Source: Thermomonas flagellata (GTDB lineage Bacteria > Pseudomonadota > Gammaproteobacteria > Xanthomonadales > Xanthomonadaceae). Taken from it: DNA of 64,000 nt. The stretch is taken from NCBI RefSeq assembly GCF_022419185.1, contig NZ_JAJOZK010000002.1:228884-292883 (forward strand), written 5' to 3'. Under the pieces are notes generated by a model. It saw nothing but the letters and a program-made list of their open reading frames with translations. It had not been told where the DNA came from and did no database searches. The position numbers and the translations under genes are program-made. Positions 9,723 through 21,881 of the stretch are shown here, one piece after another. The number at the start of each line of letters is the position of its first letter. The stretch's first letter is position 1.

Positions 9723-10621
9723 CGCGCCCCGACTATCCGTTCACCCCGCAGCGCTTCACGGTCCGCCCCGGCATCGGCCTGTCCTTCCTCGACGAGGGCC
9801 CGCGCGACGGCGAGGTGGTGCTGATGCTGCACGGCAATCCGTCGTGGAGCTACTACTGGCGGCATCTGGTGCTGGGCCTGCGCGACCGCTACCGCTGCGT
9901 CGTGCCCGACCACGTCGGCATGGGCCTGTCCGACCGCCCGGACGATGCCCCGCACGCCGTGCCGCGCTACGACTACACCCTGCAGTCGCGGATCGACGAC
10001 CTCGACGCCCTGCTGCGCCACCTGCGCATCGACGGCCCGCTGACCCTGGCGGTGCACGACTGGGGCGGCGGCATCGGCTTCGGTTGGGCGCTGCGCGATC
10101 CCGCGCGCGTGCGCCGGCTGGTGATCACCAACACCGGCGCGTTCCCGCTGCCGGCGGGCAAGCGCTTCCCGCGCCGGCTGGCGCTCGGCCGCGACTCCCG
10201 CCTCGGCGGCTGGTTGATCCGCCGCTACAACCTGTTCGCGCGCGGCGCCGCCCACTTCGGCACCACCCGCCGCCTGCCGCGCGCCGTGCGCGCGGCCTAT
10301 GCCGACGTGTACGCCGGCTGGGACAATGCCATCGCCACCCTGCGCTTCATGCAGGACATCCCGCTGCGCGCGGACGACCGCGCGATGCCGCTGGTGCAGG
10401 CGATGGCCGCGGCGCTGCCCGGCTATGCCGACCGCCCCGCCCTGATCGGCTGGGGCCTGCGCGACTTCGTGTTCGACCGCCACTTCCTCGACGGCTTCCG
10501 CCGCGCCCTGCCGAACGCCGAGGTGCACGCCTACCCGCACGCCGGGCACTACGTGCTGGAGGACACCCACGAAGTGCTGGTGCCGCGCATCCGCGCGTTC
10601 CTGGACGGGCATCCGGTGTGA
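9719..10621 (+). CDS. oleB: OleB, beta-lactone decarboxylase (alpha/beta hydrolase)
   Basis: Last step of olefin synthesis: it converts the cis-beta-lactone made by OleC to a cis-alkene and CO2. The 300-residue protein has the haloalkane-dehalogenase-type fold. The nucleophile is D114 in VHDWGGGIGFGWA, matching the Asp114 reported for X. campestris OleB. An oxyanion-hole HGNPSWSYYW and the catalytic histidine in HAGHYVLED are also present. The ATG overlaps the stop of the preceding gene. oleC, normally nearby, is displaced 11 kb downstream by the CRISPR-Cas locus. Confidence 0.94.
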   Translation: MTRPDYPFTPQRFTVRPGIGLSFLDEGPRDGEVVLMLHGNPSWSYYWRHLVLGLRDRYRCVVPDHVGMGLSDRPDDAPHAVPRYDYTLQSRIDDLDALLRHLRIDGPLTLAVHDWGGGIGFGWALRDPARVRRLVITNTGAFPLPAGKRFPRRLALGRDSRLGGWLIRRYNLFARGAAHFGTTRRLPRAVRAAYADVYAGWDNAIATLRFMQDIPLRADDRAMPLVQAMAAALPGYADRPALIGWGLRDFVFDRHFLDGFRRALPNAEVHAYPHAGHYVLEDTHEVLVPRIRAFLDGHPV

Positions 10622-10640
10622 GCCGCAGCCCCGCGGGCAG

Positions 10641-10892
10641 TCACGGCGCGTCGTCTGCCTCGTCGTTTTGCGCGCCGTGCCGCCGGTGCCAGGTCAGCCA
10701 GCGGTACGCCTTCAGCGCCCACGGCTTGCCGAGACCGGCGCCGATCCCGACCGCGATCGAACCCCCGACGATCAGCAGCACCAGCGCCGCCGCCCACCAC
10801 CACGCATCGAACCGGGCGACCAGCAGCAGCGCCAGCAGGACGCCGGCCATCGTCAGCATGTAGCCGATCCACTGGAACAGCATTCCGAACAT
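10641..10892 (-). CDS. Small membrane protein of unknown function
   Basis: An 83-residue protein with two predicted membrane segments: residues about 5-26 (FQWIGYMLTMAGVLLALLLVAR) and about 30-53 (WWWAAALVLLIVGGSIAVGIGAGLG). A basic-acidic tail follows (WHRRHGAQNDEADDAP). The ATG sits behind a good GGGAGG ribosome site. It is convergent with oleB (19-base gap). I do not recognise the family. Confidence 0.6.
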   Translation of the reverse strand: MFGMLFQWIGYMLTMAGVLLALLLVARFDAWWWAAALVLLIVGGSIAVGIGAGLGKPWALKAYRWLTWHRRHGAQNDEADDAP

Positions 10893-11185
10893 GTGCGCCT
10901 CCCTCGTATGGGCCGCTGTGACCCCGTGTGCGCGCATGATGCGATGCCGCGGCGTCGAGGGGGCGCGAGCCCCAGGCAGGCTTGGCAGCGGGAGAGGGAG
11001 AGGCGGAAGGCGTTGCGACGCGGGAAGAGCCGACGCGAGCCGCGGCCCCGCAGCGGTCATGGCGCGGCGCGCGGTTGGTCTTGTGCCAGGCAAGCTGCCG
11101 GGCCGGAAGGGGCGATCTCCTGTGCGTGTGCGCTGGGCAGACCTCCCGCATGAAGCCGCGCCTATATCCAGGTCAACCCGCCGCG
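10893..11185. other. Non-coding stretch at the leader-distal end of the CRISPR array
   Basis: Nearly 300 bases without a convincing gene. Bases 11115-11142 resemble a decayed CRISPR repeat in their right half (13 of the last 15 positions agree with the consensus), 43 bases before the outermost intact repeat. No transposase, tRNA or terminator is evident. Confidence 0.4.
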
Positions 11186-11213
11186 GGTCGATCCCCGCGT
11201 GCGCGGGGGAGAC
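11186..11213 (-). repeat. Outlying CRISPR repeat, identical to the array consensus
   Basis: A full 28-base repeat with no mismatches to the main array units. It lies 572 bases beyond the next repeat (11786). As the array is read from the leader at its right end, this is the oldest, terminal repeat. It is not degenerate, although terminal repeats often are. Confidence 0.9.
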
Positions 11214-11225
11214 GTAGAGGACGCC

Positions 11226-11342
11226 ATGGCCGACATCGCGGTGGTGTTCCACTGGCCGCCGGCAGCGATGGACGGCATGTTCCTCGATGAACTGATGGCA
11301 TGGCGGGAGCGTGCCCGCGAGCGGCATGAGGCGTCGGAATGA
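11226..11342 (+). CDS. P2 GpE-family phage tail protein
   Basis: A 38-residue product that fits the short P2 GpE family over its whole length. It has the conserved ADIAVVFHWPP start, a variable acidic-methionine middle (MDGM) and the ELMxWRERARER ending. In P2-like phages, GpE and its frameshifted longer form chaperone tail assembly on the tape-measure protein. An AGAGGA ribosome site lies just upstream, directly after a CRISPR repeat. The gene is intact, but its phage context is gone except for the two frames that follow. Confidence 0.85.
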   Translation: MADIAVVFHWPPAAMDGMFLDELMAWRERARERHEASE

Positions 11343-11357
11343 TGGTAGGATCGAATC

Positions 11358-11591
11358 ATGGACGCGCTGGTCTTTCTGGTGGTGGTGATGCTCGCCGTAG
11401 GCGTGCACTCAGCGCTCAACGGCGTGATCAAGCCCCTGGTCGACCGCGCCTATCCCGTGGAGGCCACTCCCCCGCCGCTGCCGCCGACCCCGGCGGCCGT
11501 GGCGGTGAGCCGCCGCAGGCGTCGCCGCATCTGGTTCTGGCTTGCCGTGTGGATCCTGGTCGGCAACCTCATGCAGTTCGTCCCGTTCTGA
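11358..11591 (+). CDS. Small phage-encoded membrane protein (unknown function)
   Basis: A 77-residue protein with two membrane segments, residues about 4-21 (LVFLVVVMLAVGVHSALN) and about 60-76 (IWFWLAVWILVGNLMQF). They are joined by a proline-rich stretch and an Arg-Arg-Arg-Arg-Arg-Arg cluster. It lies between the GpE gene and the tape-measure fragment, so it probably came from the same phage. I do not recognise a family. A second start (GTG/ATG) is not needed; an AGGATCG-like site precedes the ATG. Confidence 0.6.
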   Translation: MDALVFLVVVMLAVGVHSALNGVIKPLVDRAYPVEATPPPLPPTPAAVAVSRRRRRRIWFWLAVWILVGNLMQFVPF

Positions 11592-11618
11592 CGCTGGCGC
11601 GGCCGGCAGAGGCCGGCC

Positions 11619-11828
11619 ATGGCTGACACCCTGCGTTTACAGGTCATCCTGGACCTGGTGGATCGGGCGGGGGCCAAGCTCCGCGCCATCACCGGCGGGA
11701 GCCACACCGCCGACAAGGCCATGGCCGCGCTGCAGGACAGGCTGCGCGGGTTGCAGGCCCAGCAGCAGCAGATCGCCCGGCATCGGGTCGATCCCCGCGT
11801 GCGCGGGGGAGACAATTTAACGCGTTAA
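11619..11828 (+). pseudogene. Phage tail tape-measure protein, 5' fragment cut by a CRISPR repeat
   Basis: The first ~56 codons read as the N-terminus of a P2-type tail tape-measure protein (MADTLRLQVILDLVDRAG, then an ITGGS turn and a coiled-coil-like DRLRGLQAQQQQI). At 11786 the frame enters the CRISPR repeat and stops at 11826-11828. Complete tape-measure proteins are many hundreds of residues long, so this is a remnant. It lies on the strand opposite to CRISPR transcription, so pre-crRNA through this interval would be antisense to it. Confidence 0.8.
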
Positions 11829-12911
11829 ATTCCCAATCACGCCTAAGGTCGATCCCCGCGTGCGCGGGGGAGACCGCTGCGGGCGCTGGGCATGCCCTGG
11901 GCCGAAGGGTCGATCCCCGCGTGCGCGGGGGAGACGATGATGGCCATGGATCAGGTCTCCGGAGTGGAGGTCGATCCCCGCGTGCGCGGGGGAGACTTCA
12001 TACGCGGTTTACACGCCTCACAGGGGTGGGGTCGATCCCCGCGTGCGCGGGGGAGACCGGGCGCTGATACCTGATATGGCTATTTTCCGGGGTCGATCCC
12101 CGCGTGCGCGGGGGAGACGCCACCTCGTCGCCGGTGGCGGTGACGGGCAGGGGTCGATCCCCGCGTGCGCGGGGGAGACGCCAGGCGGCCGGCGGCGTAG
12201 CTGGTGGCCTGGGGTCGATCCCCGCGTGCGCGGGGGAGACCTGGTGGAACTGGACGGCACGCGGGTGGCGACGGGTCGATCCCCGCGTGCGCGGGGGAGA
12301 CGAAGAACCCCCCCCCGCGGGGCGCTGATCCTGAGGTCGATCCCCGCGTGCGCGGGGGAGACTATCCGAGCATTGAGGTGTCGATATGCAGCAGGGGTCG
12401 ATCCCCGCGTGCGCGGGGGAGACGGTTCGCCGCGGTCGGCACGCTGGCGACATACGGGTCGATCCCCGCGTGCGCGGGGGAGACGCGGACAGGTGCTCGC
12501 CGGAAATCTCCGGCGAGGGTCGATCCCCGCGTGCGCGGGGGAGACGATCTGCCGACCAGCACGCGGTATCCGGGTTCGGGTCGATCCCCGCGTGCGCGGG
12601 GGAGACCTGGAGATCGGCGATGCCCGCGACATCGAACGGGGTCGATCCCCGCGTGCGCGGGGGAGACTCGGGGCCTGCCTCGCCGAACACGCCGACGCCG
12701 GGTCGATCCCCGCGTGCGCGGGGGAGACCCGCAGGCATCCAGTGCCGCGTTGTTCGTGGGGGGTCGATCCCCGCGTGCGCGGGGGAGACCAGCAAAAGTA
12801 TGGTGCGACGATCCGACCGTGGGGTCGATCCCCGCGTGCGCGGGGGAGACCTGGGGGCGTGGCATGGCCTGCTGGCCTCTGGAGGTCGATCCCCGCGTGC
12901 GCGGGGGAGAC
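11786..12911 (-). CRISPR. Type I-E CRISPR array, 19 repeats and 18 spacers
   Basis: Nineteen identical 28-base repeats begin at 11786 and recur every 61 bases to 12884-12911, leaving eighteen 33-base spacers. On the plus strand the repeat begins GGTCGATCCCCGCG and ends GCGGGGGAGAC; its CCCCGCG...CGCGGGG arms form the Cas6e hairpin. Read from the cas2 side (minus strand), it matches the direction of E. coli I-E arrays, with GATCGACC at the 3' end. The base next to each repeat on the spacer 5' side (crRNA sense) is C in most units and T in the rest. Spacers 1 and 12 contain strong inverted repeats; spacer 15 resembles tape-measure coding sequence. Confidence 0.98.
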
Positions 12912-12972
12912 CCTAGTATCTAAGTCTCTGGCGATAAAGCCAAATTGTCAAAGAACCCTATTTCGCTCGGTA
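12912..12972 (-). promoter_or_regulatory. CRISPR leader with candidate promoter
   Basis: The 61 bases between the cas2 stop and the newest repeat are clearly AT-richer than the surroundings. Read on the minus strand they contain a perfect TTGACA (12946-12951) pointing into the array. No equally good -10 box is seen at 17 bases, so the exact promoter is uncertain. The leader is short; recognition elements may extend into the 3' end of cas2. Confidence 0.6.
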
Positions 12973-13266
12973 TCAGCGTCTGCACGCAAGGAGCAGGCCG
13001 TCGGCTTCTTGGAAGTGGATGGGTGGGGTGCCCAATACGCGTATGGCCTGCCCACCGGGGATGCCACGCTCTTGCCACAGGAGGATCAGCGCGGCATCGC
13101 GTTCGTTAGGAAACCATTGTTCGAGCACCTGCCAGACGCGATTCCGTACTGCGGGGGAGAGGCGAGGGGCGCTATAGACGCCAGGTGCCAGTTCAAGCAT
13201 TACAGAGGCCAAAAAACCGCGTATCCGCGGGGATACGTTACGGGTCACCACCACCGTCATCGACAT
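12973..13266 (-). CDS. cas2: Cas2e, CRISPR adaptation subunit
   Basis: A 97-residue type I-E Cas2 protein. It forms the central dimer of the Cas1-Cas2 integrase that measures and inserts new spacers. The I-E form is recognised by the MTVVVTRNVSPRIRGFLASVMLELAPGVY start and by WQVLEQWFPNERDAALILLWQ. It is the last gene of the cas operon and overlaps the 3' end of cas1 by 29 bases, which suggests translational coupling. The array leader begins directly after its stop. Confidence 0.95.
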   Translation of the reverse strand: MSMTVVVTRNVSPRIRGFLASVMLELAPGVYSAPRLSPAVRNRVWQVLEQWFPNERDAALILLWQERGIPGGQAIRVLGTPPIHFQEADGLLLACRR

Positions 13267-14137
13267 CGAAGAGCTCCTTGATGCGGTCGATCATGCGGGG
13301 GATCAGCTTCTCCTGCCGGAAGAGCCTGGCGGCGCGTTGTCGAACCTCACGCTCCAGATGAGCGGCCTTGCCATCAGCGAGTGCACGCACTGCGCCAAAC
13401 GCCAGCGGAAGGGTGATGTCGACACGGTACAGATCGGCCACATCCAGAGTGAAGGCATTGCTCGAATCTTCGTGGATGAAGCCCAGCGGTGGCAGCGCGC
13501 CGACGGCAGCGACGGCAATGTCGGCGGCGGCTTCCACGAACGTTGCCGCATGGTTGATTGCCTGGTTCGCCGGGTCTGCGCTGTTTGGATTGTCACGGTC
13601 ATAGCGGCGCCCCTGCCAGGGAATGCCGAACCGTTGCGCAACGAGCTTGTAGCTCTCCTTCATGCGCGCGCCTTCGATGCCGCGCAGGGTTTCGATGTCG
13701 CGATGCGGCAGCACGCGCCCGAAGCGCCAGGCGTAGAGGCGGCGTGCGGTGTCGAGCCGCAGTTTTGCGTCGGCCCAGCGCTCGGCGTGGCGGCGGGCGA
13801 CGTCGGAGCGGCCTTGCCCCATCGGCGGTGCGGTGTAGCTCTTGACGCCGCCTTCGCCGACGGCGGCGATCAGGGTGCCGTGGCGGGCGCAAAGGCGCAG
13901 CACATCCTGCGTCAGGCTGGTGCCCGGGCCGAGCAGAATCATCGACACCGCCTGATAGGGGATGGCGTAGTCGCCAGCGTCGAGCGTCTCGCTTTTGGCC
14001 GCCACGAAGCGCAGCGTGCCGTCCTCCACCGACAGCCTGCCGTACTCCAGCCACAACAGGCCGTGGCGGTCGGCGTGCGGGATGCGCGAGGCGGCCAGTC
14101 CCAGCCGCCCGTGCAACAGGCCAGGCGCGGGGCTCAT
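13238..14137 (-). CDS. cas1: Cas1e, CRISPR integrase
   Basis: A 299-residue Cas1 of the I-E type, the catalytic half of the spacer integrase. The metal-binding glutamate lies in IEGARMKESYK. The histidine and aspartate are in LGFIHEDSSNAFTLDVADLYR, matching Glu141, His208 and Asp221 of the E. coli protein. The open frame continues upstream of this start into cas6e. The ATG at 14137 is chosen because family similarity begins here (PGLLHGRLGLAASRIPHADR) and because it overlaps the cas6e stop as ATGA. Confidence 0.97.
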   Translation of the reverse strand: MSPAPGLLHGRLGLAASRIPHADRHGLLWLEYGRLSVEDGTLRFVAAKSETLDAGDYAIPYQAVSMILLGPGTSLTQDVLRLCARHGTLIAAVGEGGVKSYTAPPMGQGRSDVARRHAERWADAKLRLDTARRLYAWRFGRVLPHRDIETLRGIEGARMKESYKLVAQRFGIPWQGRRYDRDNPNSADPANQAINHAATFVEAAADIAVAAVGALPPLGFIHEDSSNAFTLDVADLYRVDITLPLAFGAVRALADGKAAHLEREVRQRAARLFRQEKLIPRMIDRIKELFDVDDGGGDP

Positions 14138-14832
14138 CGCGGCGGGCTGAGCAGGACCATGCCAAAACCGAAGGCGCGATGGCGGCCGATGCCGCGGGCC
14201 AGTTGCGCCGCGAAGGCCGTGCCGTCCTGCACCACGGCATCCGCGCCAAACAGGGCCTGCGGCCGCTCGACGAGGCGGAGGCGGTTGCCGCCGTTGCGGG
14301 CGCGGCGCAAGAGCCGGCTGCGGGCGCTCATTCCCAGCAGTTCCACCTGTTCCAGCCGCAGCGCCTCGCCCCATTGGGCCATGAACCATTGGCGATAGAC
14401 CTCGGCGCGTGGCGGTGTGGCCGCGCCCGTGCGGTCCAGCGCCCGCAGGTACACGTCTTTCTCCTCGTCGTCCTTGCGCGAAACGGGGCAGACCAGAACC
14501 TCCAGCCGCAGGCGCTGGCCACGACGCCACTCACCGGGCATGGGCTTGCTGGCCAGGCCTTCGGCATCCAGGGCCGCCCAGCCGCCGGGGGAGGCGAAGG
14601 CCTGCGCCCGCGCCAGAAGTTCTTCGGCGGGGATCCGGGCGTAGCCCAGCACCTCGTCGCGCCGCTCGAAGTAGCGGAAGGGCTTGGGCGCGTGTTCCCC
14701 GAACAGGGCCGCGAACCAAGCGTGCAGGGTGTAGCCCAGGGTTTCGTCTTCCTGGGCGATGCCGTGTTCATGGGCGAAGCGCAGCAGGCGCGGTGCATGG
14801 ACGGGAATGCGCACGAGATGCAGCGCGCTCAT
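14134..14832 (-). CDS. cas6e: Cas6e (CasE), pre-crRNA endoribonuclease
   Basis: Cleaves the long CRISPR transcript at the 3' base of each repeat hairpin and stays bound in Cascade. The 232-residue protein ends in the characteristic glycine-rich loop (GIGRHRAFGFGMVLL). The N-terminal half carries the histidine of the active site (HEHGIAQEDETLGYTLH). It is joined by four-base overlaps to cas5e upstream and cas1 downstream. Confidence 0.95.
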   Translation of the reverse strand: MSALHLVRIPVHAPRLLRFAHEHGIAQEDETLGYTLHAWFAALFGEHAPKPFRYFERRDEVLGYARIPAEELLARAQAFASPGGWAALDAEGLASKPMPGEWRRGQRLRLEVLVCPVSRKDDEEKDVYLRALDRTGAATPPRAEVYRQWFMAQWGEALRLEQVELLGMSARSRLLRRARNGGNRLRLVERPQALFGADAVVQDGTAFAAQLARGIGRHRAFGFGMVLLSPPR

Positions 14833-15545
14833 GCCAGTACCTCCAGAAAGCCCACGGCATGGCGCTGCGTGCCGCGGTGGATGTTGTTGCGCCAGTCGCG
14901 CGGGGCGTAGCGCTCTTCGACCTGGGCACCTTGCCCCTCATCCAGCGGCCACAGGGCCGGGATGGGGCCGGGGCGCCGGCGCGGGCCGATATCGGCCAGT
15001 GGCTCGGCGGCGAGCGCGGCCCGCACCCCCTCCGCCTCGCGCCGCCCCAGCAGCAAGGGGCTCGCGGGCAGGCAGGGCTTGCGGCCGAGGAACAGCGGCC
15101 GGGCGGGAAAGCGCAATGCCTGCTCCAGGGCCGCAAGGCCGAGGTCGCCTTCTCCGTCCAGCGCCAGGGCGATGGTGGCGACGCCGTTGGCCCAGTGGTC
15201 GCGGTGGCGGATATGGGTGCCGGTGGCGTTCTTTTTGTCGCCTTTCCGATCCTCCCGGCGCCCACGCGTGGTCCAGCCGGTATCGACCAGGAAATCCTGC
15301 CCCAGGTCCACGGTCTGGTAGTCAGTCAGCAACTCCGGTTCGGCATCCCAGCGGGCGGCGAAGCGCAGCCGGTCCTGCAGGGCCTGCAGCCGGTGGGTGT
15401 CGCGGTGATCCCAGCCCAGGGCATTGCCCAAGAGGCCCGTGAGCATGGCCACGCCGGGGAAACGCCAGACCGGATGGTTCTGGTCCACCACCACGGCGCC
15501 GAAGCTCATCAAGGGCGCATCGAGGCGCAGCAGCAGTACGTCCAT
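14829..15545 (-). CDS. cas5e: Cas5e (CasD), Cascade subunit
   Basis: A 238-residue Cas5 of the I-E type that caps the 5' handle of the crRNA within Cascade. It starts LLLRLDAPLMSFGAVVVDQNHPVWRFPGVAMLTGLLGNALGW, the standard CasD opening, and has the flexible glycine/lysine-rich thumb (TRGRREDRKGDKKNATGTHIRHR). A C-terminal DWRNNIHRGTQRHAVGFLEV block follows. Spacing: 9 bases after the cas7e stop, and a 4-base overlap with cas6e. Confidence 0.95.
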   Translation of the reverse strand: MDVLLLRLDAPLMSFGAVVVDQNHPVWRFPGVAMLTGLLGNALGWDHRDTHRLQALQDRLRFAARWDAEPELLTDYQTVDLGQDFLVDTGWTTRGRREDRKGDKKNATGTHIRHRDHWANGVATIALALDGEGDLGLAALEQALRFPARPLFLGRKPCLPASPLLLGRREAEGVRAALAAEPLADIGPRRRPGPIPALWPLDEGQGAQVEERYAPRDWRNNIHRGTQRHAVGFLEVLA

Positions 15546-15554
15546 GCCGGGGCC

Positions 15555-16697
15555 TCATGCCTGGGGGCCAAAGATGGCATCCAGCGCCGCCGCCACGGCC
15601 TGCGGCACCGGCTGTTTGGGCGGGAGCTGCGCGGGCTGCTCGAGCGTGGTGGAGAGGTGTCGCGTCTCGCCCTCGGCTGGGTCGCCGTACATCGCATCAA
15701 GCTGCTTGACATAAGCCGCCAGGCGGCTGAGTGCCGCGTTGCGCAGGTCGCTCTTGCCTTCCGGGCGCAGGGCATCGAGGAAGGCGTTCGACAGCGCCCG
15801 CGGCTGGCTGCGTCCCGTTTCGAGGTAGAGCGCATCGGCCCAGGCGTAGGGCGCGGTGCTGCCCTTCTTCGCGCCGGGGCTCTGGCGCAGGATGCTGTCG
15901 ATCAGGGCCTCCAGCACGCGCCGGGCGGTGCTGCCATCCTGGGCGCGCCAGTCCCTCGCCTCGCAGCCGGTGAGGTTGGAAACCAGCAGCGGTACATCCA
16001 CGGCCACGTAGCCGTAGTACAGGCCGGCGCCCAGTTCAGCTTGGTTGGCGTGCGCCGCGCCAGTTTCATCTTCGCGGTTGAGGTCGTCCACCACCGTGAA
16101 ATAGTCCATCTCGGTGTTGGCGGTGTGCACAGTGAAGGCATGCGCGACATGCACCGGGGCATCGACGCGGGCGAGCAGGTCGGAGGTGACCATGCGGCCG
16201 AAGAGTGCGGCGGTCAGGCCCGCGGCCGACTTGCTCATCGCCTTCAGGTTGTCTTTTTCCTCCTTGGATTTCAGCCGCTCCTCCAGCGCTTTCTTTGGGT
16301 CACCCGCCTGGCTGGCCTCGCGCAGCAGTTGCACGAAGTAGTCGGCTTCACGCAGCCCAAAGAGCACCGGCTGGTTCAGATCGCCACCTTCCTTGACGCC
16401 GCCGTCGATCACGGCTTTGGCCAGCGGCTCGATCAGGCTCTTGGCCAGGTCTTCTGGCACGCCGGCCGCGACGGCGCGCGGCAGCACAGTTCGGGTAAAG
16501 AAGGCGCGGGTGCGCTGCCCGTCAGGGAGTTCGGGCAGCCGGGGGGCGAGGTCCTCGCGCCAGTGCCGCTTCAGGCACTGCGAGGAGACGCGCAGCCGCA
16601 CGGCGTTGCCGAAGGGAATGCGCTTGGCCAATCCTGCGTCATCGCGGTTCAGCAGGCTGGCGGGGTAGGCGGTGAGGGTGTGGATCTGCAGAAACAT
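15555..16697 (-). CDS. cas7e: Cas7e (CasC), Cascade backbone subunit
   Basis: A 380-residue Cas7 of the I-E type; six copies coat the crRNA spacer in Cascade. Recognised from FLQIHTLTAYPASLLNRDDAGLAKRIPFG, the RVSSQCLKRHWR segment and the conserved ALFGRM and VAHAFTVH stretches. The product is close to the family length (E. coli 363 aa). The ATG at 16697 fits the family start; cse2 ends 22 bases before it. Confidence 0.95.
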   Translation of the reverse strand: MFLQIHTLTAYPASLLNRDDAGLAKRIPFGNAVRLRVSSQCLKRHWREDLAPRLPELPDGQRTRAFFTRTVLPRAVAAGVPEDLAKSLIEPLAKAVIDGGVKEGGDLNQPVLFGLREADYFVQLLREASQAGDPKKALEERLKSKEEKDNLKAMSKSAAGLTAALFGRMVTSDLLARVDAPVHVAHAFTVHTANTEMDYFTVVDDLNREDETGAAHANQAELGAGLYYGYVAVDVPLLVSNLTGCEARDWRAQDGSTARRVLEALIDSILRQSPGAKKGSTAPYAWADALYLETGRSQPRALSNAFLDALRPEGKSDLRNAALSRLAAYVKQLDAMYGDPAEGETRHLSTTLEQPAQLPPKQPVPQAVAAALDAIFGPQA

Positions 16698-16719
16698 CAG
16701 CGGCTCCTTGCGGTGAGGA

Positions 16720-17238
16720 TCAGTCGTTCTTGGGCAGATGGCGGTAGAAGGCCTGGGCGATGCGGCGATGCACGGCTTCGCGCTTGTCGGCGTCGGTGGT
16801 GAGCAGGAAGCGGGCGGCCTCGGTGAGGTCGAAGCGCTCGCCCTTGGCGGCGAGGAAGCGCACGGCGGCCATGAACAGGTCTGGCCGCACGTCGTCGGGG
16901 GCGGAGAGCAGCCGTTCCAGCCGGCCTTCGGCAAAGCCGCTTTCGGCCAGCGCTTGGCCCCAGGGGCGCCCGGGTGTGTGGGCCTCCGCGCCCAGCGTGG
17001 CAAGGCTCCAGGCCAGCTGCATCCAGGCTTGGGTCGCAGCCTCGGCGGGAAGGTCGGCGTCGATCTGGCGCAGCCACAGGCGGTAGAAGGCCAGCGGCAG
17101 CGGCTGGCCCGGCGCCCAGCGGCGCAGCGCGGCGCGGTCGCCATTGGGATAGTGCTCGGCGCCGATGGCATGCGCCAGGCGGCCCACGGTGCTGGCGAGG
17201 GGCGATGCCTTGGGGGATGTGGGGGCGGGTTCGCTCAT
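16720..17238 (-). CDS. cse2: Cse2 / Cas11e (CasB), Cascade small subunit
   Basis: A 172-residue, mostly helical protein that forms the two-copy belly of I-E Cascade and stabilises the displaced DNA strand. Typical features are the GDRAALRRWAPGQPLPLAFYRLW segment and the TEAARFLLTTDADKREAVHRRIAQAFYR ending. Its ATG overlaps the cse1 stop by four bases. Confidence 0.92.
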   Translation of the reverse strand: MSEPAPTSPKASPLASTVGRLAHAIGAEHYPNGDRAALRRWAPGQPLPLAFYRLWLRQIDADLPAEAATQAWMQLAWSLATLGAEAHTPGRPWGQALAESGFAEGRLERLLSAPDDVRPDLFMAAVRFLAAKGERFDLTEAARFLLTTDADKREAVHRRIAQAFYRHLPKND

Positions 17239-18836
17239 ACCGTTTGCTCCTCGGGTTCGGGGGTTTCGGTGGCGGCGCGCCCCGGCAGGGGCAGGCCGGC
17301 CTTGTGCAACATGCCGCGCCAGGCGCTCTGCGCCTGCGTCAGCGCCCGCCAGCGCCGGTTGGACGGCAGCGGCAGACGGGCGGCGGCCGCATCGAGCAGG
17401 GCCTGGCCGGCATCGACGAGGCGCTGCTGCCAGTCATGGCGCACCGCCTCATGGGCCTCGTCGGCGCCGCGCCAGAGGGTGGGGAAGTAGTGCGGTTCCC
17501 AGGTCTTTGCAAAGCCGGCGCGTGCCGCCTTGATCCATGTCTCGACGCGCTCGAAATCCGCTTTGTCCGGCCCGCCCTCGCTCAAGACCGTCAGCGCCGT
17601 GGCCAGGGCCCGTTGCACGTCCTTGGCATCGCCCAGCAGCTGCTGCCCGAGTTTCCCCAGCGTCTCCCGGTTCGCCTTTTGCAGCAGGGCGCGGCGGGCT
17701 TTGGCGGGAACGGGGATCTGGGCGCGGTGAAAGCCTTCCGTGGTGCCCTGCCCGCGCACCAGGCAGGACGCCACGAACCAGCCATCGCCCTCACCTGCCG
17801 GTGGCCGTTGCAGCGGGGTGAGCTCGAAGCCCTGTTCGAACAGCAGGTCGGTTAGGCGCTGGGGGGTGAATCCGTCATCGGAAAGGGTGAGGGCGGATCG
17901 ACCTTTCTTTTTGTCGCCGACGTTGATGGCGGTCCAGGGGTCGCCGATGTCGCCGTTCTCGGCCGTCTTGGGGCCGATCTGCCGCGCCTCGCTGGTGGCC
18001 CCCAGTGCCATCAACCCGCCCTCTGCACGCGGCCACAGGCGGATCGGGCGGGCGGCTTCGATGAACCAGGGTTCGAGCTGATCGAGGCTAAGGTGGTGCT
18101 GCTTGCGGTTCCAGTGGGTCAGCCAGGTGAGCACGATGCCGCGCTGCGGATAGCGCGACTCGCGGCAGACTGGCTCGCGAAGGCGGGCGAGCGCCCGGGT
18201 TTCGTCGGCGAATCGGGCCGAGGGGTGGAGGTCGCGCACCCAGGCGGCGATGCTGCGGCTGGCAAATCCGCCGTTCATGCGCACGATGCCGTAGTTGCCC
18301 TTGCCGAGAAAACCACTGGTGGTCTGCAACACCACCAACGCGAAAATCCAGGCCTCCACCGAATCCGCCGTGACGCGCGCCATCTTGACGTCGTGGTTCT
18401 TGGCGGTGACGAGCACGTCCAACTCATCCGGCGAGCTGGCCTTGGGGTCGAACACGGTCTGCCCGCGGCTGGTTTTCACCCCGTAATCTGCCGCCTCGGC
18501 CTCCCAGCTTTTCCACGGGTGCTGCATGAAGGCCGGCTTGGTTACGTCCTCCACCACCAGCTGCCAGGCCTCGGGAATACCGTCGGACAGATCGAGCAGT
18601 CCCTCGCGCCAGTAGGCCGCGTCGGTGGGCAGGGCGTTGGTGGGGCGTCGCGCCTGGATGCTGGCGGCCAGCTGCACCAGGAACACATGCCAGGGGTCGG
18701 CCTGATGGGCGCGCAGCCCGGTGTAGCCCTCGATCTGGCCGGCGCTCAGCGCAGCCAATAACTCGGGCAAATTCAGGCGCTGCGATCCCTGCGCGGTGCG
18801 CACGCCGATCAAGGGGTCATTGAGCAAGTCGTGCAT
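17235..18836 (-). CDS. cse1: Cse1 / Cas8e (CasA), Cascade large subunit
   Basis: A 533-residue PAM-reading large subunit. It opens with the standard MHDLLNDPLIGVRT, in which the frame-defining ATG is at 18836; the frame continues upstream but only as a shadow of cas3. Downstream it has GLLDLSDGIPEAW, AFMQHPW and GFLGKGNYGIVRMNGGFASR. These are the conserved loop L1 region and the segment that contacts DNA in E. coli CasA. A C-terminal four-helix bundle follows. It overlaps cas3 by 20 bases and cse2 by four. Confidence 0.95.
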   Translation of the reverse strand: MHDLLNDPLIGVRTAQGSQRLNLPELLAALSAGQIEGYTGLRAHQADPWHVFLVQLAASIQARRPTNALPTDAAYWREGLLDLSDGIPEAWQLVVEDVTKPAFMQHPWKSWEAEAADYGVKTSRGQTVFDPKASSPDELDVLVTAKNHDVKMARVTADSVEAWIFALVVLQTTSGFLGKGNYGIVRMNGGFASRSIAAWVRDLHPSARFADETRALARLREPVCRESRYPQRGIVLTWLTHWNRKQHHLSLDQLEPWFIEAARPIRLWPRAEGGLMALGATSEARQIGPKTAENGDIGDPWTAINVGDKKKGRSALTLSDDGFTPQRLTDLLFEQGFELTPLQRPPAGEGDGWFVASCLVRGQGTTEGFHRAQIPVPAKARRALLQKANRETLGKLGQQLLGDAKDVQRALATALTVLSEGGPDKADFERVETWIKAARAGFAKTWEPHYFPTLWRGADEAHEAVRHDWQQRLVDAGQALLDAAAARLPLPSNRRWRALTQAQSAWRGMLHKAGLPLPGRAATETPEPEEQTV

Positions 18837-21384
18837 CGTTTTTCTCCAGGCCGAGGCGGGTATAGCGGAAGGCCGTCTCACCGATTGAGAACGAGAAGCC
18901 CGCAGCCTCCTGTCGTCCCTGCACTTGCTCGGGCACGTTGCGCTCGCCAAGCCAATGCGCGGGGATCGAGATGCGCGAGATCATCGCGCCAAGGGGCGAA
19001 CGCATCGGCGCGGCCAACGGGATGTCGAAGGTCGGTCGGCCAAGGCGGGTGAGCACGCGTTCGCCTTTGTCGGCGTAGTGCAGGTCGCCGAACGGCCGGT
19101 CGTCGACGACCGAGCGCAGCGCCTGGCGGATTTCGCTGAGTTCTTTGCCTTCGATGGCCGCGCCGTGCGCCGGCCAAGGTTCGGGCAACCGGGCGAAGCA
19201 CTCCGGATGGGTGGCGGCTTCGATGCGCGCGCGGGCCTGGGCCGGGAGCCGCAAGACGGGATCTGCGGCCAGCGATTGCCAGGTCAGCGCGAGGACGCGC
19301 CCGTCCGGGTAGACGCTGCCCAGCCCGGCCGGGCCGCACAGCAACCCATCGCGGGTAAGGAGGGCGTCGAGGTCGCGGTCGGGCACGCGCACCAGCACCC
19401 GCGGCGTCTCGAAGCCCTTGGGGCGCTCGGCACGGGTGTGCCGGTGCAGGCGGCCGATGCGCTGAATCAGCACGTCCATCGGCGCCAAGTCGGTGATCAG
19501 CCAGTCGGCATCGATGTCCAGGCTCTGCTCCAGGGTCTGCGTGCCGACGAGCAGGCGAGGGCCGGCGGGGGAACCTTTGCCCAGCTGTGCCGTCACGGCC
19601 GCATCGAGCCGTTCGCGGTCTTCGCGCGCGAAGCGGCCGTGATGCGGACAGCGCACGCCATCGAGGCCGAACAGGGCGGGTAGCAGCTCGGGGTGATGTT
19701 GCTCCAGATACGCCTCGACGCCGCGGAACAACGCATTGGCCCGCGCCACGGTGTTGCACACCACCAGCACCCGCGCGCCGGCTTGCAGCGCCGCGGCCAG
19801 ATCCGGCAATAGCGCGTCGTCGTGCGTCAATGTCGGCGATGTCGTCACCTCGATACGGCGCTCGCGCGGGGCGGGCATCGGCCAGGCGCCTTGCCGCGCG
19901 GACAGCAAGGGATAGGGTCGTTGCACGGCCTGGGCAAACGGCACCGGGTCGCGTTCGAAATACGCCGCGGCAGCGGATTCGCCGAGGGTCGCCGACAGCA
20001 GCAGCGCCCAGCCGCCGCGGGCGAGATGCCCGCGCAACAGCGCGCGCAGCACCTCGCGCATGTAGGGGTCGGAAGCATGGACTTCATCGACCACCAGCAG
20101 ATGCCGATCCAAGCAGACCGAGCGCAGCAGGCTGTGCTTGACCTGCAGGGCCGACAGCAGCGCCTGGTCGATGGTGCCGACCGCGATCGGCGCGGCGAGG
20201 AAGCGCTTGGGCCGCTCGGCCGACCACAGGCGCTCGCGGCGCTGATCGGCCGCGCTGTCGTCCCACAGCGTGCCCTGCGGGTCGGTCAGCATCGTGCCGA
20301 CCGCCTGTCCGTCCACCTGGACATAACCAGGGGCGGCCAGCAGCACCGGTCCAGGACGGTCGTCACCGTCGAAAGCGGAGTGCACGGCCGCGAGTACCCG
20401 GCCATACAGCTCGCGCGCCGCTACGCGCGTGGGCAAGGCGAAGTACAGCCCATCGACCTTTCCTTGCGCGTACAGACGGAAGAACCAGGCCAATGCCGCT
20501 TCGGTCTTGCCCGAGCCGGTGTCGGACTCGGCCAGCAGCAGCCGGGTGTCCTCATCGGGGGCGATCTCCCCGGCCAGCGCGGCTTGCAACGGCGTGGGGC
20601 AGAACTTGAACGTGTCTTTGAACGGCTTGGGCTGGCGATGCGGCGGAGGCGACAGCCCGATGCTGCGCAAGGCCCGCCGCGCTGCCGCCCGAGCCAGCGC
20701 CATGCGGTCTTCGGTCGGGCTGGCCCGATAGGGGAAGAACTGCGTGTCCGAGCCGATCCAGTCGGCCAGCATCACCAGCCCGGCAAAACGCTGTTGCAGC
20801 GCAGCAGTGGCGTCGATCGGCGGAATGTCGGGGTCGAAAGCCGCAGGAAACACGTTGCGTGCGGCCGCTGCCAGGGCATCGAGCGCCGCCAGCGGGTCGT
20901 AGCCAGAAGCAGCGGTCCACCAGCGCCTGGCCGAGCGGTCGATGCCAGCACCGCGATAGTCGTTTTTCGATACCGGGCGGCCGTGATGGGAGACGCTGGC
21001 CAGCAGCACTTGCAGCGCCTGTTCCTCGTCGCCGAACCAGCCGGCAATATCGGTCAGCAGCGCGGTCCATCCGGGCGGCCGGAGGTCTTGCAGGTCGAAC
21101 AGCAGGGCCGCGGCTTCAAGCACATGCCCCGCGGTGTCGCGCGGGGCTGGATCGATCTTGGCCTGGAAGCCGCGGTTGCACTTGCCGAAGTCATGCAGGA
21201 AAGCGACGACGGCAAGGCGGTCACACTGGGTGGGGCTGAGGGTTCCGAGCCGTGCGATCAGTGGCAGATCGCACAGATGGCGGAATGTGACGGCGACATC
21301 CAGGCAATGGTCGGCCAGCGGGTGACGATCACCGCCGGCTGGACGGAATTTTCCCCAGGGCGGCTGCGGCTTCATGGCATCCAT
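18817..21384 (-). CDS. cas3: Cas3, CRISPR helicase-nuclease
   Basis: An 855-residue protein recruited by Cascade to unwind and degrade target DNA. The N-terminal HD nuclease contains H26 and the HD pair H64-D65 (FLHDFGK). The helicase part has Walker A SDTGSGKT near residue 295, a DEVH box (VVDEVHASDPYM) near 430, SAT, and motif VI (QRIGRLHRH). The start at 21384 is preferred over upstream codons because an AAAGGGGGTG ribosome site precedes it. It is the first gene of the eight-gene cas operon. Confidence 0.95.
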   Translation of the reverse strand: MDAMKPQPPWGKFRPAGGDRHPLADHCLDVAVTFRHLCDLPLIARLGTLSPTQCDRLAVVAFLHDFGKCNRGFQAKIDPAPRDTAGHVLEAAALLFDLQDLRPPGWTALLTDIAGWFGDEEQALQVLLASVSHHGRPVSKNDYRGAGIDRSARRWWTAASGYDPLAALDALAAAARNVFPAAFDPDIPPIDATAALQQRFAGLVMLADWIGSDTQFFPYRASPTEDRMALARAAARRALRSIGLSPPPHRQPKPFKDTFKFCPTPLQAALAGEIAPDEDTRLLLAESDTGSGKTEAALAWFFRLYAQGKVDGLYFALPTRVAARELYGRVLAAVHSAFDGDDRPGPVLLAAPGYVQVDGQAVGTMLTDPQGTLWDDSAADQRRERLWSAERPKRFLAAPIAVGTIDQALLSALQVKHSLLRSVCLDRHLLVVDEVHASDPYMREVLRALLRGHLARGGWALLLSATLGESAAAAYFERDPVPFAQAVQRPYPLLSARQGAWPMPAPRERRIEVTTSPTLTHDDALLPDLAAALQAGARVLVVCNTVARANALFRGVEAYLEQHHPELLPALFGLDGVRCPHHGRFAREDRERLDAAVTAQLGKGSPAGPRLLVGTQTLEQSLDIDADWLITDLAPMDVLIQRIGRLHRHTRAERPKGFETPRVLVRVPDRDLDALLTRDGLLCGPAGLGSVYPDGRVLALTWQSLAADPVLRLPAQARARIEAATHPECFARLPEPWPAHGAAIEGKELSEIRQALRSVVDDRPFGDLHYADKGERVLTRLGRPTFDIPLAAPMRSPLGAMISRISIPAHWLGERNVPEQVQGRQEAAGFSFSIGETAFRYTRLGLEKNDARLAQ

Positions 21385-21444
21385 GCAATACACCCCCTTT
21401 GGGTGGCCGCGTGAGGCGATTATTCCTTGATCGCAGCGCTCACG

Positions 21445-21463
21445 GATACCAAGCAACGGTATC
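21445..21463. promoter_or_regulatory. Inverted repeat upstream of the cas operon
   Basis: GATACC (21445-21450) and GGTATC (21458-21463) form a perfect dyad with a 7-base centre. It lies about 60 bases before the cas3 start, in an AT-rich gap of ~115 bases that must hold the cas promoter. An operator for a dimeric repressor or activator is a reasonable inference; no regulator gene is in the locus. Confidence 0.4.
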
Positions 21464-21500
21464 AGAACTGTGGTCTGAAGGATGACCCTGAAGCCTGCCG

Positions 21501-21881
21501 CTATCCCCTAGGCAGCGGATTCTTCTCGCTTTCCGCCACGCCGATCCAGTCGTCCGGCGTCAGCACCGGCAGGCCGTGGGCGCGGCGGGCCTTGTCGCAC
21601 TGCGGGCTGGGCTGGCCGAATTCCCAAGAGGCGGGCACTTCGCGGCAGACCGAGGGGCGGTGGGGATGGATGGTGCAGCGCGCGTGGCGGCCGATGTCGG
21701 CGTCCAGCGCCACGCAGCGGATCGGCGGGGCGTAGGTGCCACGCATGCACAGGCGGTGGGCGTCCACGCGTTCGGTGAGCGCGGCCGGCACCCCGCCCGG
21801 GGTCACCGCGTCCGATTCCATCCAATGGAAGGCGACGCGGTATTGGGTGCAGCAGGCGCCGCAGGTCAGGCAGGGATGCAT
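21501..21881 (-). CDS. YkgJ-family cysteine-cluster protein
   Basis: A 126-residue protein with the UPF0153/YkgJ metal-binding pattern: CLTCGACC at residues 4-11, a central CVALD, then CTIHPHRPSVCREVP, and a late CDKARRAHG. The clustered cysteines probably bind zinc or an iron-sulfur centre. The biochemical role is not established for the family. The ATG at 21881 puts the first cysteine cluster next to the N-terminus, as in relatives. It lies between the cas operon and oleC, divergent from oleC with 98 bases between. Confidence 0.85.
   Translation of the reverse strand: MHPCLTCGACCTQYRVAFHWMESDAVTPGGVPAALTERVDAHRLCMRGTYAPPIRCVALDADIGRHARCTIHPHRPSVCREVPASWEFGQPSPQCDKARRAHGLPVLTPDDWIGVAESEKNPLPRG

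Follow-up and report, generated by a model that had tools for sequence, protein, structure and literature searches.

How did a stretch of phage tail DNA come to lie between two perfect repeats of a bacterial CRISPR array, at many times the length of a spacer? The question is raised by a locus of Thermomonas flagellata, of which 64,000 nucleotides (the window, to which all positions refer unless otherwise indicated) were analysed. By exact matching, the array comprises 20 type I-E repeats of 28 bp, all 20 identical (GGTCGATCCCCGCGTGCGCGGGGGAGAC on the plus strand), which span 11186-12911 and start at 11186, 11786, 11847 and so on to 12884. Eighteen intervals are 33 bp in length and one is 572 bp, and both repeats bounding the latter match the array repeat at 28/28 bases (Table 1). 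The same 28-bp repeats around 572 bp, with eighteen other intervals of 33 bp, had been described in the initial annotation, and the exact matches bear this out. A complete type I-E cas operon adjoins the array on the minus strand. Because the right-hand neighbour of the array is cas2e, the leader is placed on that side, and the 572-bp interval is therefore leader-distal, i.e., the oldest.

Of 24 congeners, 21 strongly match the hydrolase gene on the left of the CRISPR-Cas island (10620-21511), and in 20 of these 21 a gap of 20-1357 bp separates this match from the match to the gene from ~21.5 kb, the exception being G008, in which the two matches are 246 kb apart. Since the flanking genes are nearly adjacent in 20 congener loci, the island looks like an insertion between them. 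The array sits between chromosomal genes beside the full cas operon, and not in a phage genome, where the repeats of phage-borne mini-arrays are located. A search for decayed repeats past the terminal repeat of the window was negative (P=0.32). Just past this repeat, there is a small membrane gene (10641-10895, minus strand) that resembles DNA of another phage type, and an overlapping stretch of 224 bp (10679-10902) has 79% identity to the DNA adjoining the tape-measure start in the prophage of congener G007.

Table 1. Features of the array and cas locus in the window, and oversized intervals found in other type I-E arrays
Feature	Position	Strand	Remarks
Terminal leader-distal type I-E repeat	11186..11213	-	Identical to the other 19
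Phage-derived 572-bp interval	11214..11785		
Arm A, 33 bp adjoining the distal repeat	11214..11246	-	Spacer-like length
GpE tail gene	11226..11342	+	38 aa; PF06528, E=3e-20; phrog_1756 in frame from the first codon at 11214
Retained PAM, AA (TT on +)	11247..11248	-	Immediately 5' of arm A (crRNA strand)
Small membrane protein	11358..11591	+	77 aa, intact
Tape-measure protein, first 55 residues	11619..11785	+	Cut by the repeat; phrog_28, E=6e-10
Leader-proximal repeat bounding the 572-bp block	11786..11813	-	
Remaining array	11814..12911	-	18 spacers of 33 bp and 18 repeats
Leader side, between array and cas2e	12912..12972	-	Placed by cas2 position and repeat orientation
cas2e	12973..13266	-	TIGR01873
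cas1e	13238..14140	-	TIGR03638
cas6e, cas5e, cas7e, cse2, cas8e, cas3	14134..21456	-	cas6e below the curated cut-off
L200, Tepidimonas fonticaldi	Interval 96/96		488 bp; phage content from the IMG/VR match
L184	Interval 13/13		950 bp; moderate phage content (phrog_220, PBECR3)
L174	Interval 20/20		386 bp; weak phage content (phrog_26)
L189	Intervals 18 and 19 of 19 (of 20 with a further decayed repeat)		890 and 941 bp
L234, Hydrogenibacillus schlegelii	Interval 14/18		445 bp; phage origin unproven

What lies between the two perfect type I-E repeats is one uninterrupted piece of phage-like tail DNA. Family matches agree with the initial reading of a GpE tail gene, a small membrane protein and the 5' end of a tape-measure gene in phage order, and all three genes are antisense to pre-crRNA transcription, as had also been stated. 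P2-like phages (e.g., Dobby) have this order except for the small membrane gene, which is an addition between GpE and the tape measure; a gene of this kind was seen at the same place in some congeneric prophages that were read by eye. In the family search the GpE also touches phrog_10636, and hydropathy places hydrophobic segments at both ends of the 77-aa protein. Matches to phage records, to families and to congeneric prophages give the interval the invader origin of a type I-E spacer, but its length is far from the 32-33 bp of such a spacer.

Phage homology extends to both bounding repeats, in agreement with the earlier claim that phage sequence reaches them. At the left edge, DNA matches to congeneric prophages start at base 1 of the block (G017, 78%; G012, 71%) or at base 4 (G019, 76%), and in 19 phage records the match starts at 11210-11225, 17 of the 19 at 11213-11214. 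To the left of the distal repeat no trace of the upstream phage E gene was found; at that place the E gene is 83% identical between two of the matching congeneric prophages. At the right edge, the match to P0005, a tape measure from Logan, includes the final residue of the block (...QQQQIARH), after which P0005 continues with Arg; 44/55 residues are identical by hand count, including 8/10 of the last ten.

A search for the parent phage, as suggested in the initial annotation, gave only distant relatives of the block in IMG/VR, phage records and plasmids. The 2.52-Mb assembly, a draft in 15 contigs, contains no other copy of the block and no second GpE, the GpE of the block being the sole match. 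Among 5.8 billion proteins, the 77-aa membrane protein has one relative besides itself at E<=0.01 (P0002, 81%), and G008 is the only one of the 24 congeners with a long match to the membrane-gene part (75% DNA identity). In G008, phage debris beside the hydrolase (L038, 8180-11600) contains an intact homologue of the window membrane protein among scrambled pieces. Relatives carrying the block outside any array and with no phage context, which the initial annotation had named as evidence against its view, were not found, and neither was a fault in the assembly, which it had also named, as far as the assembled contigs show.

Several other origins were tried and rejected. There is no transposase in the reading frames of the block, which excludes an insertion sequence, and an N-gap was also rejected as the origin of the interval. 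A whole prophage was rejected as well, and the earlier proposal that a prophage had entered a spacer and was almost wholly lost finds no support: the sequence on the left is not the phage gene expected upstream, the right side is the array, and GpE, the gene of this phage type that was sought in the assembly, is single in a genome with no other copy of the block. Moreover, random deletion is not expected to stop at repeat edges at both ends, which also counts against a lost prophage.

Nine of the 18 ordinary spacers match one prophage of G007 (C1:253.8-268 kb) with 0-5 mismatches, all on one strand. This prophage looks lambda-like (portal, terminase, fibre J and tape measure), and the clustering on one strand is as primed adaptation would give. 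In 8/9 of these protospacers AA is located directly 5' on the crRNA strand (S07 has GC), and AA is taken as the PAM of the array. This set was limited to the nine G007 spacer matches at <=5 mismatches; matches at 6-9 mismatches were left out, as were those at <=5 mismatches of S12 (seven other loci) and S17 (one), 1/8 of which has AA. In the block, at a distance of exactly 33 bp from the distal repeat, AA is followed by the C with which arm A starts, which is how a spacer would stand in its phage, and AAY occurs at 7/570 block positions (1.2%). The boundary position of arm A was recorded before the PAM was derived. The PAM of arm A is therefore at the right spacer distance, yet it has been kept inside the array. 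No resemblance to a second spacer is seen at the leader-proximal end, which is predicted not to be PAM-derived: AA beyond this edge is predicted by 0/9 aligned tape-measure homologues, in which the residue after the conserved Arg is E, D, A, E, T, T, N, A or T, respectively. No codon of these residues starts with T, so the homologues predict no AA outside this end.

The closest parallel is found in Tepidimonas fonticaldi AT-A2. Its last interval is contiguous in IMGVR_UViG_3300029892_000144 with 97.8% identity, and it is 94-95% identical to two more IMG/VR contigs. The homology between interval and phage ends at both repeat edges, within one base. The matching phage is P2-like, with a phrog_23 sheath (in the sister contig L313), a PF04985 tube protein FII and a PF10109 chaperone E, and its tape measure, as the full gene from the IMG/VR contig, matches phrog_28 at E=5e-121. 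The 64-residue tape-measure piece in the array, taken alone, gave no match in the family search or phage records. In the phage, the DNA of the slice is unbroken and leads from a GpE-like ORF through an opposite-strand small membrane gene to the tape measure; no exact copy of the repeat pattern is present in the phage stretches L312-L314 (4.2 kb each). The ORF at the GpE place has no PF06528 match but matches phrog_8286 and, weakly, phrog_10636, the family also touched by the window GpE, so that the two are connected by a weak family match only. The slice starts inside this ORF and ends after ~64 tape-measure residues. Its cut therefore differs from that of the window but covers the matching tail region, and the tape measure is again antisense to the crRNA. 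However, Tepidimonas fails the PAM-offset test, with GA before A at the offset and an AA before T at 30 nt from the repeat. Of the ordinary spacers in this array, 94 have 33 bp and one has 44; none of these 95 matches the 4.2-kb phage stretches at <=6 mismatches. Past its terminal repeat (L200, 17579-20000) there are further phage pieces: a small membrane ORF, a weak start of a tape measure, and a phrog_26 tail-completion gene with a seemingly repeated start. Chance does not explain why two hosts captured matching parts of the tail region, a coincidence noticed post hoc among few cases.

About 115 type I-E arrays outside the window were surveyed (26 + 63 + 26), a few genomes being represented twice and many arrays being cut by contig ends. 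The first 26 arrays came from 29 other genomes over the cut-off, after one non-CRISPR repeat and one repeated locus had been dropped. The 63 arrays came from a contig scan with Cas1e alignment, in which 80 of 372 confirmed loci were kept, and the last 26 came from 29/29 new places over the cut-off. Seven oversized intervals of ~400-950 bp in six arrays, including the window, were retained (Table 1), and in 4/6 arrays the oversized interval is the last one. One of the two L189 intervals matches phrog_2266 (E=1.5e-26) and the other weakly matches a tape measure; both (L189a and L189b) share one array with decayed repeats, and the phage origin of L189a is weak. For the intervals of G427 and G511, the matches are to head or tail-completion genes. 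A decayed repeat past the terminal repeat was sought in six arrays and was clear only in L189, with P=0.06 in L184.

AA is present at the ruler offset in 4/7 oversized intervals (window, L234, L189a and L189b), against 1.9-5.4% expected from the AA frequency of each interval (P=3.5e-5); without the window the count is 3/6 (P=8e-4). The misses are L200 of Tepidimonas, L184 and L174, the dinucleotides at the offset being CG before C in G427 and GG before A in G511, besides that given above for Tepidimonas. When the prediction was fixed beforehand and applied to 29 further loci (26 arrays), it held in 0/3 odd intervals, i.e., those that were neither gaps, nor second arrays, nor the product of one lost repeat. 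In these three (L303 and two in L291), one of the bounding repeats is degenerate, and no phage gene is clearly recognisable. With these three less similar intervals added, the count is 4/10 (P=7e-4), and in this ten-interval set offset 38 scores 3, so that the peak at the ruler offset is clear but not clean. The intervals of L250 (1142 bp, 45/45) and L267 (256 bp, 1/69), which were set aside for chance, decayed or leader-side repeats, would add two further misses.

Other long intervals were also set aside. In L172, an interval of 1194 bp holds an IS-like transposase ORF, as read by eye, and one of 499 bp has scrambled repeats. N-gaps account for L239, L244, L259 and L300, a cas1 gene between repeats for L271, and second arrays over long distances for L179, L243, L251, L254, L261, L266, L274 and L288. 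Intervals of ~63-95 bp in L173, L180, L183, L191, L226, L267 and L288 were attributed to one lost or degenerate repeat, by eye in L173, L180, L191 and L288 and by length in L183, L226 and L267. Unit lengths vary strongly in L240 and L196 (mostly 57-61 bp and 53-63 bp, respectively), and the Cas1e of L240 is 90% identical to that of the window. A 42-kb IMG/VR phage contig, L278, carries a mini-array of five repeats of this family, three of them exact copies (1656-1927), just after a gene that by eye resembles a tail-fibre assembly gene. In another IMG/VR contig, L277, the repeat family is present at the end (43-70) and is followed by what by eye is a phage tail operon; this may be a host array with a phage interval or a phage mini-array.

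Spacer length is held to be set by the Cas1-Cas2 ruler together with trimming, and no spacer as long as the present interval is reported in the literature searched. The explanation that we favour, tentatively and at a little below an even chance, is that Cas1-Cas2 integrated a long phage fragment, a step that we infer, with the non-PAM end measured normally and the PAM side never trimmed. According to a review (PMC10011333), integration in E. coli starts at the leader side with the trimmed non-PAM end, whereas trimming of the PAM end comes late and is followed by its joining at the spacer side. With this order of events, a failure of the late trimming would give the geometry of the window. The PAM side, with ~540 bp of phage DNA attached, would become joined to the opposite side of the repeat, and two perfect repeats would result once the gaps were filled. 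Late trimming that fails with a long tail would thus leave leader, repeat, far end ... PAM, 33 bp, repeat, as in the window. The 20/20 identical repeats, the location of both edges on repeats, the position of the PAM, the excess of AA at the ruler offset among the oversized intervals, the predicted lack of a PAM at the leader-proximal end and the Tepidimonas case with 97.8% identity are all in support of an untrimmed PAM side. On the other hand, only 4/7 intervals (4/10 in the enlarged set) have AA at the offset, and the structure of Cas1-Cas2 argues against full-site integration of such a long fragment. The recurrence of the matching tail region in Tepidimonas, which chance does not explain, also counts against this reading.

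An untrimmed fragment would also have consequences for the function and position of the interval. Its crRNA would have its start within the tape measure, where no PAM is predicted, and would therefore be a poor guide. Since no crRNA would start at arm A, a chromosomal PAM-bearing copy of A would escape attack. The preference for the oldest end may arise because priming is not available for the very first acquisition of an array; alternatively, spacers behind such an interval might fall silent and be lost, leaving it in the oldest slot.

Among the origins first proposed, the aberrant long prespacer fits best, because the PAM is one spacer length from the distal repeat and both ends are on repeat edges. 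Recombination between an array and a phage, which had also been proposed, is unlikely, although it deserves consideration. A phage would have recombined with a resident spacer A through 33 bp of identity, and most of the inserted phage would later have been deleted, for example by self-targeting, leaving phage-PAM-A-repeat. Spacer-target recombination was reportedly observed in staphylococci by Varble and colleagues in 2019, in Nat Microbiol. Recombination of spacers with phage targets is on record, at second hand, in a review (PMC8616872). Such an event predicts the same PAM-A-repeat junction, and at arm A of the window a spacer-length stretch next to a repeat does continue, on its PAM side, into phage DNA; the absence of a copy of A able to self-target would also be explained. 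However, the other end would have to hit a repeat edge by luck, whereas the window and Tepidimonas both have the two ends there. Recombination also gives no reason for the last position, and the single block and single GpE of the assembly do not favour it. The exact location of both edges on repeats would be accounted for if two ordinary spacers, A and B, had served as homology arms for a double crossover that swapped the intervening repeat for the phage stretch. Arm A does carry a PAM, and the first base of B in the window is C, as in most spacers. We nevertheless consider this improbable, as AA outside B is predicted by 0/9 tape-measure homologues, and in Tepidimonas the phage has GG outside the leader-proximal 33 bp (B) and B starts with A, while B of G427 starts with G.

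An error of assembly, in which array and phage reads were joined, could be suspected in a draft genome of 15 contigs, but judging from the assemblies alone it is very improbable: the independent Tepidimonas assembly has the same architecture, a chimera is not expected to end at both repeat edges, and the assembly contains no other copy of the block. A further possibility, compatible with any route of entry, concerns why the slice was kept. From the gene content, retention for phage exclusion is possible, in that an intact membrane gene beside the tape-measure start might exclude the same phages, but we regard this as doubtful. Intact small membrane genes do adjoin the tape-measure start in the window, in Tepidimonas and in L189a (two ORFs; the L189 tape measure is weak), and the G008 copy is intact inside phage debris, with a dN/dS of 0.29 against the window gene. 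A superinfection-exclusion protein such as HK97 gp15 is a membrane protein that blocks DNA injection; in the 77-aa protein, hydropathic segments were observed. However, a simple consensus scan of 11150-13000, which also concerns the earlier idea that the block could give a long antisense RNA, found no promoter-like match, and no terminator; in G427 and G511 the intervals give matches to head or tail-completion genes instead; and selection inside the array is inseparable from selection in the phage. The wider proposal that type I-E arrays capture whole phage genes, with Cas1-Cas2 able to store invader DNA in slices the size of a gene, and that hosts keep slices with a tape-measure-linked membrane protein that blocks the entry of the same phages, appears equally speculative and is probably incorrect. 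If it were true, the array would bank protein-coding immunity besides RNA guides. Under the untrimmed-prespacer explanation, slices of ~400-950 bp, some with a PAM at ruler distance, would be natural products of failed trimming. Through them the trimming step could be studied from genome sequences, and phage DNA that codes for protein would be shown to be a possible content of arrays. Tepidimonas offers a testable pair in this respect, i.e., an array slice and a phage with 97.8% identity.

Compared with known systems, the interval resembles an ordinary type I-E spacer in being phage DNA between identical repeats and in the distance of one spacer length between its AA PAM and the distal repeat; it differs in being 17 times too long, in retaining the PAM and in having a leader-proximal end predicted to be non-PAM. 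As in spacer-target recombination, ascribed to Varble and colleagues, phage DNA is connected to an array through a match of spacer length beside a PAM. There, however, according to the review, array DNA moves with the phage, whereas here a short phage slice is inside the array with repeats at its edges. Phage-borne mini-arrays and solitary repeats, as presented in two reports (PMC11656645, PMC10651486), likewise combine host-type repeats with phage DNA, as in L278. In the present case, however, the phage slice is inside a host array beside a complete cas operon, and L312-L314 are without an exact repeat. The insertion of an IS into an array would similarly lengthen one interval, as in L172, the example read by eye in the survey, but the window block is without a transposase.
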